Shown: piece by piece, positions 8,699-35,035 of the stretch
Layout: the number at the start of each line of letters is the position of its first letter
How positions within the stretch are numbered: the first letter of the stretch is position 1
Source: Pseudomonas laurentiana
GTDB taxonomy: Bacteria; Pseudomonadota; Gammaproteobacteria; Pseudomonadales; Pseudomonadaceae
Length of the DNA stretch: 64,000 nt
Assembly (NCBI RefSeq): GCF_014648275.1
Contig: NZ_BMQU01000001.1
Coordinates: 124,001-188,000, forward strand
Direction of reading: 5' to 3'
Translations under genes and position numbers: made by a program
Notes under the pieces: model-generated
The model's database searches: none
Told to the model about the DNA's origin: nothing
The model's input: the letters and a program-made list of their open reading frames with translations, nothing else

Positions 8699-10189
8699 TG
8701 CTGGCCATGAAGCCTCGTAACACGCCGCGCCAGGTACTCGGCGAATCACCTCAGGTACTGGCTGAAGCCCTGCAGGACGGGGTCAATCTGGCCGCTTGGG
8801 AGCGGCAGTTGCCTGTACAGGTCGCCGATTTTGCCAGCCTGTTGTTGTCGTTGAACCAGCCATTGGCAGAGTCGTTCACCTTGGAGTTGGGTGACGACGG
8901 GCAACTGCCGGTATTGCCCACATTGGCCCGAGGTTATGCCGATCTGGCGGGCTATGATGGCTTCGTCGCCGATGTGGCCTGGTTGGTCAGTGCTTATGCC
9001 TGCCTGCTGGATGCGCGTCGGGTTGGGGTGCGTCTCACGGTACTGGATAACGCCATGTGCCCGCGTTGGCATGTCGATCACGTGCCCCTGCGATTGCTCA
9101 CGACCTATGCCGGCCCTGGCAGCGAATGGCTGGAAGAGGCTGTGGATAAACGAGTCCAGCCGCTACCGGCAGAGGTTGAACCTTCGCGGGTACGCCAGTT
9201 GGCCTGCGGTGCTGTCGCCTTGCTAAAAGGGGAGAAGTGGCTGGGTAATGAAGGCAGCGGGCTTATCCACAGGTCGCCAGCATTGGCCAACGGTGAGCGT
9301 CGCTTGATCCTTAGCCTTGACTGGATGGCCTGACTCCAGCGCATAGTGTGCGATCTACCAGGCCTGTTGATGACGATGCTACAGAACATACCTACCCACG
9401 TGATTGCCGGGCCCTTGGGTGCCGGCAAGACCAGTCTGATTCGCCACTTGATGGCTCACCGTCCAGCCTCTGAGCGCTGGGCGGTGTTGATCAATGAGTT
9501 CGGCCAGATCGGCCTGGATGCGGCGCTGCTCAGTACTGCAGATGACGGCATTGCCATGGGCGAGGTGGCTGGAGGCTGCCTGTGTTGTGTAAACGGTGCA
9601 CCGTTCCAGGTTGGTCTGGGCCGGTTGTTGCGCAAATCCAGGCCAGACCGCTTGTTTATCGAGCCCTCAGGGCTTGGTCATCCGGCGCAGCTCCTGGCGC
9701 AACTGCGCCAGCCGCCATGGCAGGGTGTGCTGGATGTGCAGCCCTTGGTGATGGTGCTGGATGCCCAGGTGTTGGCCGCCGGTCAGTCGTTAGCGGACAG
9801 TCAGCAAGCCGCATTGGTTGATGCGGGATTGTTGGTGCTGAACAAAGCCGAGGCTGTGGATAGTGAAAAACGGGTGTGGATAACCTCCCGATTACCCGCC
9901 GTGCGGTGTTATTGGACGGAGCAGGGTCGGTTACCTCTGGATGAGTTGCCGAAGCAGTCCACCGCACTTGTGGATAAGCCGGCTGTGGATAATTCTGCGT
10001 TGCCTGACGGTGTCGCGCCACTCGGCGCTCTGTGGACAAGTCCATCCGAGCCGATCTGCCTGCACCATCAATCAACTGACGGCTGGAGTATCGGCTGGCG
10101 CTGGCACCCGAGTCAGTTGCTCGATGCGCAGCGCATAGAGGCGTTTCTTGCGGGGCTGGCATGGCGTCGCGCCAAACTGGTTATCCACA
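8313..10189. repeat. cluster of DnaA boxes inside the zinc operon
   Basis: Perfect TTATCCACA or its complement at 8313(+), 9141(-), 9263(+), 9875(-), 9969(-), 9984(-) and 10181(+). One-mismatch copies lie at 9855(-) and 10031(-). Five copies between 9855 and 10039 point the same way. They fall in different reading frames and encode different residues (FIH, AVD, LIH, VWI, LVD, VIH), so protein conservation does not explain them. See the findings. Confidence 0.75.
8698..9333 (+). CDS. DUF1826 protein, zinc-starvation operon
   Basis: A 211-residue protein of the DUF1826 family, recognised by the segment CPRWHVDHVPLRLLTTY followed by GPGSEWLEE. The family often sits in Zur-controlled operons and has no proven activity. 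The conserved His/Asp cluster could bind metal, but that is inference. I chose ATG 8698, which overlaps the zigA stop as TGATG, with GAGGAAG about 10 bases upstream. The frame is open to 8674, but that start would lie deeper inside zigA. It contains two perfect DnaA boxes (9141-9149 and 9263-9271). Confidence 0.85.
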   Translation: MLAMKPRNTPRQVLGESPQVLAEALQDGVNLAAWERQLPVQVADFASLLLSLNQPLAESFTLELGDDGQLPVLPTLARGYADLAGYDGFVADVAWLVSAYACLLDARRVGVRLTVLDNAMCPRWHVDHVPLRLLTTYAGPGSEWLEEAVDKRVQPLPAEVEPSRVRQLACGAVALLKGEKWLGNEGSGLIHRSPALANGERRLILSLDWMA

Positions 10190-10344
10190 GCCCGGAAGGT
10201 TGGCAGTCCGCTAATGCGTTGGAGGGTAAAGCCCTGGCCTGGCAATCGAGCAACTGGCGGCGTGATTCACGTATCGAGTTGATCTTTGCTCAGGCCCAGG
10301 ATGCCGAAGCGCTGCAACAAGGCATGGCGGCATGCCAGTGTTGA
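9370..10344 (+). CDS. second CobW/COG0523 GTPase of the zinc cluster
   Basis: A 324-residue COG0523 GTPase, distinct from the 7490 gene. Walker A GPLGAGKT is at residues 14-21, followed by INEFGQIGLD and the metal motif CLCC at 70-73 in GGCLCCVNGAPF; NKAE serves as the guanine-specificity motif. The C-terminal domain is short and divergent. The start is uncertain: GTG 9346, ATG 9370 and ATG 9376 are all in frame, and I prefer 9370 from the homology start. It follows DUF1826 by 36 bases and is probably in the same Zur operon. Its variable middle part (about residues 160-225) is studded with DnaA boxes. Confidence 0.85.
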   Translation: MTMLQNIPTHVIAGPLGAGKTSLIRHLMAHRPASERWAVLINEFGQIGLDAALLSTADDGIAMGEVAGGCLCCVNGAPFQVGLGRLLRKSRPDRLFIEPSGLGHPAQLLAQLRQPPWQGVLDVQPLVMVLDAQVLAAGQSLADSQQAALVDAGLLVLNKAEAVDSEKRVWITSRLPAVRCYWTEQGRLPLDELPKQSTALVDKPAVDNSALPDGVAPLGALWTSPSEPICLHHQSTDGWSIGWRWHPSQLLDAQRIEAFLAGLAWRRAKLVIHSPEGWQSANALEGKALAWQSSNWRRDSRIELIFAQAQDAEALQQGMAACQC

Positions 10345-32327: not shown

Positions 32328-32774
32328 TTACAACAGTTTGCGGAACTGAATGAAGCCAGGGCGCTCGGCCAACTGCTCGTAGAGGGCAATGGCGGTGGTA
32401 TTGGTCTCATGGGTCAGCCAGTGGACTTTGGCACAGCCCGCGGCGCTGGCCGTCGCGTAGACAAACTCGATCAACTGTCGGCCAATGCCTTGGCCACGCT
32501 GTTCCTGAGAGACCAGCAGGTCTTGCAGGTAGCATGAGTTCTCCGTTGTCCAGCAGGAACGATGATAGATCCAATGGACCATGCCCACCGCCTTGCCGTC
32601 GATCCACGCCAAGGCGGCATTGATGGGTTCGGCGGGGTCGAGCATGCGTTCCCAGGTCACCGCACTGACCTGCTCATCAATGTGGGTTTCGTAAAAACGC
32701 TGATAAGCCTGCCACAGGGGCAGCCAGGCACTATGGTCGTCGGCGTTGACCGGGCGGATCTGTACGTTGGGCAT
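32328..32774 (-). CDS. GNAT N-acetyltransferase
   Basis: A 148-residue GNAT enzyme with the acetyl-CoA-binding loop QEQRGQGIGRQLIEFVY and the C-terminal motif HETNTTAIALYEQLAERPGF. It belongs to a different GNAT branch than its downstream neighbour. The substrate (an amine) is unknown. It is 11 bases downstream of the PaiB-like gene, so three genes 33415 to 31637 probably form one transcription unit reading left. Confidence 0.88.
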   Translation of the reverse strand: MPNVQIRPVNADDHSAWLPLWQAYQRFYETHIDEQVSAVTWERMLDPAEPINAALAWIDGKAVGMVHWIYHRSCWTTENSCYLQDLLVSQEQRGQGIGRQLIEFVYATASAAGCAKVHWLTHETNTTAIALYEQLAERPGFIQFRKLL

Positions 32775-33454: not shown

Positions 33455-33503
33455 TATTGGCCTATGGTAAGAGCCATTCACTACCGATTTTATAGGTCCA
33501 ATA
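33455..33503. promoter_or_regulatory. imperfect inverted repeat, possible MocR operator
   Basis: TATTGGCCTA at 33455-33464 and TAGGTCCAATA at 33493-33503 form arms of an imperfect inverted repeat (one extra base in the right arm) separated by 28 bases, between PaiB-like and MocR genes. MocR proteins often bind paired sites of this spacing in such divergent regions. Confidence 0.4.
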
Positions 33504-33505
33504 CT

Positions 33506-35035
33506 GTGCGTGAGCAGCCCCTGTCATTGCTCTTTGACCCCACTGGCATCGTACTTGATCGACGCCAGGGATTGAGTCGCCAGTTGTATCAAGTCTTGCG
33601 CGCCAGGATTCTGGATGGTCGGCTGGGCAGTGGGACGCGTCTGCCTGCCAGTCGTGATCTGGCCAAGGCGTTGGCGTTGTCGCGTAACAGTGTGGTGCGT
33701 GCCTATGACCAGCTTTACGCTGAAGGCTTTATTGAGAGTCGGGTAGGGGACGGCACCTATGTCGCTCAGCTGCCAAAATTATCCACAAAAGTATCCACAG
33801 GGTTATCCCGGGGTTTTTCCACAGCCTTATCCACAAAATCGCCCGAAAGTACTGAGTATTTATCCAGAAAAGTTATTCACAATGGCCCATTGAGCCGGCT
33901 AGAAAAGCACCATTTGCCAGCGCCAAAAAGTGGGCCGCCCAAGGCATTCCGGGTTGGTGCGCCAGCCTTCGATTTGTTCCCCTTCGAGACGTGGGCCAAG
34001 CTCCAAGCGGGTTTCTGGCGTAAACCCGACCCGACCTTGCTCGGTTACGGCGATCCAGCAGGTGAGCCGATTTTGCGCGAACTGATTGCGACCTATCTGC
34101 GTCGTTCGCGGGGTCTTTCCTGCAGTGCTGAACAAATTGTGATCACCAGTGGCGCACAGCAGGCAATCAGCCTTTGTGCACAGTTGTTGCTGGAGCCTGG
34201 CGATGGGGTTGCTGTGGAAAACCCTGGGTACCGGGCTGCCGGGCACGCGTTCGCGCTTGCCGGGGCACGGGTGTTCGGTGTTGCGGTGGATAACGAAGGA
34301 ATGGACTGCGCTGCCTTGAATGCACTGCCCCAGTGCCGTCTGAGCTATGTAACGCCATCACATCAGTACCCTACGGGCGTCACCATGAGCCTGGCTCGGC
34401 GTCTGGAACTGCTGGCATGGGCTGAACGCAGCGATGGCTGGATCGTTGAGGATGACTATGACGGTGAATACCGCTACAGCGGCGCACCCTTGGCGCCGTT
34501 GGCGGCCTTGGACCCGCATGGGCGTGTGCTGTATGTCGGTACCTTCGGCAAGATCGCCTTTCCGGCCCTGCGGATGGGCTATCTGGTCGTACCACCGCCA
34601 TTGGTCGAGGCATTTTCCCGCTGTCGGGCACTGGCCGTGCGGCATTCGGAAGTCGGCAATCAGGTGGTAATGGCGCAGTTCATGGCACAAGGGCATTTTC
34701 AACGGCATATCCGTCGTATGCGCCGGGCAGCGTTGAGTCGGCGCAATGTGCTCAAGGCCGGGTGGCCTGTGGATATCCCTGGCTGCGGGGCGATGCCCGA
34801 TGTGGCGGCGGGCCTTCATGTCAAAGTCGACGTGGATAGCCTGGCGCGCGAACGTGAACTGGTCGCCCGTGCCGAGGCGGTTGGGGTAGAGCTGAATCCG
34901 CTGAGTGAATACTGGCTGGAGGATTCAAGCACCCCTGTGGATAACCGCGCGGGCCTGGTACTGGGTTTTGCGGCAGTGCCCGAAGCCGCGATCGCCGATG
35001 CCTTGGCACGCCTGCGGCGTGCCTGGCGTCGTTGA
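33506..35035 (+). CDS. MocR/GabR-type PLP-dependent regulator
   Basis: A 509-residue chimeric regulator: an N-terminal GntR winged helix (LSRQLYQVLRARILDGRLGSG; ASRDLAKALALSRNSVVRAYDQL, about residues 20-75) joined by an unusual linker (about 85-130) to an aminotransferase-fold domain (PYG-like VTPSHQYPTG, EDDYDGEYRY, GTFGK with the PLP lysine). I start at GTG 33506, with AGG about 10 bases upstream; the frame is open to 33464. The linker is built of LST(K/G/A) repeats because its DNA is a 12-bp array of DnaA-box-like sequences. Its target is probably the divergent PaiB-GNAT operon. Confidence 0.9.
   Translation: MREQPLSLLFDPTGIVLDRRQGLSRQLYQVLRARILDGRLGSGTRLPASRDLAKALALSRNSVVRAYDQLYAEGFIESRVGDGTYVAQLPKLSTKVSTGLSRGFSTALSTKSPESTEYLSRKVIHNGPLSRLEKHHLPAPKSGPPKAFRVGAPAFDLFPFETWAKLQAGFWRKPDPTLLGYGDPAGEPILRELIATYLRRSRGLSCSAEQIVITSGAQQAISLCAQLLLEPGDGVAVENPGYRAAGHAFALAGARVFGVAVDNEGMDCAALNALPQCRLSYVTPSHQYPTGVTMSLARRLELLAWAERSDGWIVEDDYDGEYRYSGAPLAPLAALDPHGRVLYVGTFGKIAFPALRMGYLVVPPPLVEAFSRCRALAVRHSEVGNQVVMAQFMAQGHFQRHIRRMRRAALSRRNVLKAGWPVDIPGCGAMPDVAAGLHVKVDVDSLARERELVARAEAVGVELNPLSEYWLEDSSTPVDNRAGLVLGFAAVPEAAIADALARLRRAWRR
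33779..33881 (+). repeat. iteron-like DnaA-box array in the MocR linker
   Basis: Five 12-bp periods starting at 33779, 33791, 33803, 33815 and 33827: TTATCCACA, GTATCCACA, TTATCCCGG, TTTTCCACA, TTATCCACA. Then TTATCCAGA follows at 33860 and TTATTCACA at 33873. Two are perfect and one fits TTATNCACA; all lie on the plus strand. A further perfect box is at 34936-34944 on the minus strand. In-frame the repeat encodes LST-x. Confidence 0.8.

Follow-up and report, generated by a model that had tools for sequence, protein, structure and literature searches.

The chromosomal DnaA-box cluster datA, which lies off oriC, lowers initiation (PMC5295017, PMC10950094), and in E. coli a regional enrichment of DnaA boxes near oriC has been reported as well (PMC12371093). 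In B. subtilis, initiation came early once six clusters had been removed, and putting one cluster back gave partial relief (PMC5295017); the same review nevertheless denies these clusters a significant role in controlling initiation, which weakens any analogy with B. subtilis. For P. putida the high-affinity DnaA box is TTATCCACA (PMC4285127). The usual place to look for sites that control initiation of replication is non-coding DNA; in the 64-kb stretch of Pseudomonas laurentiana DNA analyzed here (the window), an array of such boxes appears instead to be stored in a tolerant protein linker. Our main reading, drawn from sequence comparison and held with a probability of roughly 0.6, is that the linker of a mocR gene hosts a conserved oriC-proximal DnaA-binding cluster that probably acts by titration. 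Searches among open-licence papers on DnaA in Pseudomonas, and on DnaA boxes within genes, listed no description of the array.

The host gene (33464..35035, + strand) encodes a MocR-type regulator of 523 residues in which a GntR winged helix-turn-helix domain (PF00392) is followed by a class I/II aminotransferase domain (PF00155), both by profile match. The protein scores 424 bits against the PdxR model NF052282 of NCBIfam, for which the cut-off is 320, and the rhizopine MocR model scores it below that model's own cut-off. The array was located correctly in a preliminary description of the window, which had assigned it to the linker of such a regulator and noted the LST-type repeat that it encodes. 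It consists of five DnaA-box units (33779..33835, + strand) that recur with a period of exactly 12 bp and, in the reading frame of mocR, encode LST, VST, LSR, FST and LST; reading the sequence back bears out both the period and the earlier count of two perfect units, the rest being one to three changes away. Conservation of the units was followed in 120 unique segments, and a match is counted below at up to one mismatch from TTATCCACA. The first unit (-48; 33779..33787, +) is TTATCCACA itself, with family consensus CTATCCACA and a match in 109 of the 120 segments, and the second (-36; 33791..33799, +) is GTATCCACA, one change away and matched in 95/120. The third (-24; 33803..33811, +) is TTATCCCGG, with three changes, and is weak in nearly all relatives (consensus TTTTCAACA; 10/120), and the fourth (-12; 33815..33823, +) is TTTTCCACA, with one change and family consensus TTACCCACA. 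The fifth unit, box A (33827..33835, +), is TTATCCACA and always stands in frame 0 as LST, and box B (33873..33881, +) is TTATTCACA in the window, which fits TTATNCACA. Box A is exact in 115/120 segments and box B is exact TTATCCACA in 111/120, counts that partly reflect selection since the segments were chosen for the A-46 bp-B geometry with up to two mismatches. Because A and B are 46 bp apart, B lies one frame off, and a single nine-base word is thus read in two frames, as LST and as VIH. A degenerate box between them (33860..33868, +; TTATCCAGA, one change) is unconserved as a box, with a match in only 2/120 segments; it and box B do share the strand of the array, as had been described. 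The further box reported at 34936 is indeed perfect, although it lies on the opposite strand, a detail missing from that description (34936..34944, - strand; TTATCCACA, toward the 3' end of mocR); some named loci have a box in roughly the same position, among them many of putida type and others of fragi and cichorii type, whereas most of fluorescens type have none there.

The window contains TTATNCACA 12 times against 0.79 expected from dinucleotide shuffles, and none of 100 shuffles reached 12; eight of the 12 lie at 8.3-10.5 kb. When codons for the query linker were drawn from ortholog bodies with the peptide held fixed, the mean was 0.03 TTATNCACA against 3 observed and 0.33 near-boxes against 6 observed, neither count being reached in any of 20,000 draws; the cut of this linker begins too early and includes part of the winged helix-turn-helix domain, so that a longer sequence stands behind the expected values. 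Several strong boxes lie close together, as in a titration cluster, a stretch of 103 bp holding TTATCCACA twice and TTATTCACA once.

For comparison across the genus, orthologs were gathered from 80 named loci, 30 loci from 99 genus genomes and 60 more by coordinates (some genomes are duplicated), and a linker was obtained from all but two of the 170 rows (L179 and L192). L142, L167 and L179 at first seemed to have in-frame stops in their linkers; these stops precede the start, and the genes are open. Among 158 unique linkers the array is present in 145, and the most frequent 9-mer is TTATCCACA, found in 144; two exact boxes occur in 80 of these linkers, three in 31, one in 33 and none in 14. 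The 145 array linkers carry on average 1.97 exact boxes, compared with 0.010 after synonymous randomization with gene-body codons and 0.43 after shuffling of each linker's own codons. Spacing is regular, 509 of 518 near-box intervals being 12, 24, 36 or 46 bp.

Codon choice within the repeats tracks the box rather than the gene. In 104 distinct orthologs (six duplicates dropped, L103 skipped), with the rest of the same genes as control, the Leu codon of LST is TTA in 156/280 cases and CTA in 79/280 (elsewhere in the gene 2.5% and 1.7%), Ser is TCC in 232/280 (11% elsewhere) and Thr is ACA in 266/280, that is 95% against 7.9% elsewhere. For the off-frame VIH the codons are GTT in 74/74 (6.7% elsewhere), ATC in 73/74 (64%) and CAC in 74/74 (41%); since the rows are related and not independent, these percentages do not amount to a p-value. 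The preliminary description had predicted that, were the boxes fortuitous, relatives would keep the LST peptide and lose the bases; the opposite is found. A rival close to the one it had raised, a peptide repeat born of slippage, selected for properties of the linker and only resembling DnaA boxes, draws on the fact that nearly every array ortholog has LST-type repeats in its linker. We regard it as scarcely credible in view of the codon bias, of the same word recurring off-frame as VIH, of arrays found without the gene (see below), and of unit -12, which differs from the box by at most one base in 114/120 segments while its peptide varies (LPT in 62, LSP in 24, LST in 18, FST in 9 and LCT in 1), so that boxes persist where residues change. 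As far as the sequences tell, therefore, selection is on the DNA and not on the LST peptide, and a conserved linker repeat need not matter to the protein. In two linkers (L088 and L194; genome G010) a peptide of the GASLLAK/GASLLAM type has been inserted immediately ahead of the array, leaving the array itself uninterrupted; we take this peptide to resemble a translated REP element.

The arrangement is also largely specific to this gene. The exact A-46 bp-B pair occurs at 59 places in 59 of the 99 genus genomes, all within mocR by coordinates, and the reversed pattern gives no match; in these 59 pairs the 37 intervening bases, the number of which is fixed by the search pattern, are highly variable. 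The pattern TATCCACA-4N-TATCCACA is found at 48 places in 46/99 genomes, 44 of them within mocR, against one for the reversed control; the places outside mocR are in G043, in G002 (L263) and, twice, in G008 (L264 and L265). Given the L263-L265 pairs away from mocR, other lineages may carry 12-bp-phased arrays at other sites. A three-unit pattern allowing up to three mismatches has a match in 322 of the 399 genomes scanned, against five matches in three genomes for the reversed control, and among the matches listed a few fall outside mocR. By comparison, 20 MocR paralogs contain a single box in 28,704 bp.

An exact TTATCCACA stands in the linker of 78 of the 80 named loci; of the two without, L071 retains five near-boxes, and L059 has lost all boxes with its mocR frame still open. 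In 15 of the 80 (L012-L022, L025, L026, L028 and L087) box B is lost and a single exact linker box is left. When 90 orthologs are placed on a tree built from their aminotransferase part, with the linker omitted, 78 with the array separate from 12 without it by one change (support 99), and the 12 have a short Ala/Pro-rich linker and no boxes. Outside the tree, mocR of G013 has no boxes, and in G080 the mocR match is split over two frames and the boxes are kept. The array is therefore dispensable in some species, as the 12 array-free orthologs, G013 and L059 lack it.

A mocR match at E <=1e-120 is present in 377 of 399 genomes, and of the 22 without one, 20 were listed and examined; 18 of these 20 give no match to the array pattern, G037, with four units, being among the 18. 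Three genomes without an intact mocR (G043, G249 and G037) keep a phased array beside the neighboring GNAT acetyltransferase gene, which in the window occupies 32328..32774 on the - strand. In G043 and G249 the array pattern is matched with zero mismatches, with five units, 53 kb from dnaA and next to the GNAT gene; no mocR match is found in the stretches of these genomes examined, and neither a mocR nor a PaiB-type match in 19 kb of G043. In G043 the array stands ~75 bp upstream of the start of the homologous GNAT gene, a 225-aa mechanical open frame antisense to GNAT runs across it, and the layout of G249 is the same. In L259 and L272, from two related genomes, mocR and the PaiB-type neighbor are lost at this place, and the GNAT gene and the array kept. 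The GNAT genes of G043 and G249 are 93% identical, and between these genomes conservation of the array roughly equals that of the DNA on either side; being close kin with similarly conserved flanks, these two genomes are by themselves no proof of selection, and they probably represent one loss event. In G037 the four units lie between pieces of mocR, of which ~165 bases are missing ahead of the array and ~1 kb behind it; a stop codon follows four codons past box A. This looks like a second case of the array surviving the loss of mocR. Having outlived the gene and its protein in a few species, the array has the look of an independent DNA element. Persistence after loss of mocR joins the codon bias, the use of two frames and the fixed spacings in favor of the earlier proposal of a DnaA-type array under DNA-level selection.

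The same genomes bear on the possibility that DnaA bound within mocR regulates that gene, forming a roadblock by which transcription is reduced or timed to the cell cycle. The boxes do sit in the gene and on its coding strand, and a DnaA/box complex is described as blocking RNA polymerase at E. coli asnC (cited in PMC10950094). Such control is weakened as an explanation by survival of the array where mocR is gone or fragmentary, and the array-free clade retains mocR, so that we consider it rather unlikely. Autoregulation of mocR through these repeats was rejected, since in the 80 named loci the 200 bases ahead of the match start are free of TTATCCACA; the same upstream scan shows one TTATGCACA, at -112 in L076. 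A fixed operator for the GNAT gene is not suggested either, as the distance of the array upstream of that gene varies from ~75 bp (G043) to ~1 kb (window).

The array lies close to the origin of replication. In the genome of the window (G000), dnaA (G000:C1:86676-88157, - strand; its product contains the signature GGRDHTTV) is on the same contig as the array, which is ~70 kb from oriC. Of 92 genomes having both a mocR match and a dnaA row, 70 have the two on one contig and 22 on different contigs; G013, which has no boxes, was counted as array-free. In 61 of the 63 one-contig array genomes mocR is less than 200 kb upstream of dnaA, the distance from array to dnaA in these being 47-173 kb, and in 62/63 mocR is upstream of dnaA and on the opposite strand to it (median distance 89 kb). 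Both exceptions keep the array, which in G029 is 1.33 Mb from dnaA and in G094 lies to the other side of it at 275 kb, so that proximity to oriC is not strictly required. When clusters in 160-218 kb around oriC were ranked by density of boxes, using a simple score of our own, the array came first or second in four of four array genomes: in G000 it ranks first, tied with a cobW-type cluster and above oriC, and in G084, G018 and G015 it ranks second, behind oriC. G078, which has no array, has oriC at the head of its ranking, at a lower score. A suspected strand bias of the boxes in G015 was dropped, boxes being present on the other strand too.

The preliminary description had likened the layout to replication iterons; iterons of the plasmid kind find no support here, as the locus is chromosomal, its distance from oriC varies little, and its neighbors as annotated (GNAT, PotF-type and deacetylase-type genes) include no replicon gene. 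Another alternative is that the array serves another protein, chromosome organization or an accessory origin, its word merely equaling the DnaA box. The spacings are kept even in G029, far from dnaA, as this would have it; however, TTATCCACA is the DnaA word of the genus, occurring 109 times in G000 against 12 for the reversed word (~9-fold) and clustering around oriC, and in most of the 99 genomes it is well above the control. We therefore judge this alternative improbable.

Other groups of boxes were seen along the way. The boxes at 8.3-10.5 kb of the window are excluded as oriC by the position of dnaA and lie in and around zigA/cobW-type genes; they form a second DnaA-box cluster (9875-10189, plus 9141, 9263 and 10523) ~46 kb from oriC, four boxes of which are inside the CobW-type gene (9346-10344). 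Its 197- and 15-bp spacings recur in a group of boxes near the oriC of G018, a likeness in spacing. At L276:4362-6949 (G000:C1:412361-414956), ~325 kb from dnaA, nine TTATNCACA fall within 2.6 kb, several of them inside open frames that resemble, by eye, subunits of electron-transfer flavoprotein.

Binding of DnaA to the array is inferred from identity of its word with the high-affinity box. Titration would be the selected function, a plausible reading and the one we favor. DnaA would anchor on the two strong boxes, A (33827) and B (33873), and the weaker 12-bp-phased boxes upstream of A would let it spread along the DNA. Owing to its nearness to oriC the array would be copied soon after initiation, and its doubling would remove free DnaA from the pool and so help to prevent re-initiation. 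The flexible linker would be a mere host, and the LST repeat peptide a by-product of a DNA repeat with a four-codon period. In many Pseudomonas species the array may thus be an element that helps to time chromosome replication. A stronger version, to which we give about even odds, holds that it is a dedicated replication-control locus inside a coding gene, comparable to datA or to the DnaA-box clusters (DBCs) of B. subtilis: a graded DnaA filament site with two anchors and phased weak boxes, gained once in the clade of putida, fluorescens and syringae type, selected as DNA and kept after loss of the regulator.

Alternatively, the site might alter the nucleotide state of DnaA, in the manner of datA or DARS, beyond changing its free amount. 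Strong boxes combined with a directional row of weak ones, away from oriC itself, would suit such a site. Against it, datA works with IHF (PMC10950094), and a scan of 120 array segments, each 250 bp long, found no IHF consensus WATCAANNNNTTR; as such sites may be degenerate or lie farther away, this absence is weak evidence. We consider such a site unlikely as the explanation. With titration or inactivation in mind, Pseudomonas gains a concrete candidate DnaA locus, and since the boxes can be recoded with the peptide unchanged, a clean test is possible.

Set against known systems, the host protein resembles regulators of the MocR/PdxR type in having winged helix-turn-helix and aminotransferase-like domains joined by a linker, and differs in that its linker is lengthened by a DNA-selected repeat; the main text of one paper on MocR linkers contains neither the word "repeat" nor the word "DnaA" (PMC5026710). 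Plasmid iterons are likewise direct repeats with fixed spacing on one strand, whereas here the locus is chromosomal, keeps its distance from oriC fairly constant, and has DnaA boxes as its repeats. With datA the array shares the character of a chromosomal DnaA-box cluster apart from oriC; as described, however, datA is non-coding, ~1 kb long and uses IHF, whereas the mocR array is coding and ~100 bp long, and it is not classed with datA as no IHF consensus was found in its segments. The work on DnaA titration by ori-proximal boxes in E. coli (PMC12371093) concerns a regional density in that species and on one Salmonella chromosome, in a text that leaves Pseudomonas unmentioned, whereas the Pseudomonas case is one discrete conserved array. 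The DBCs of B. subtilis, as described, resemble it as DnaA-box clusters near, yet outside, the origin; Pseudomonas belongs to another phylum, and its cluster is coding, phased at 12 bp and traced through one Pseudomonas clade.
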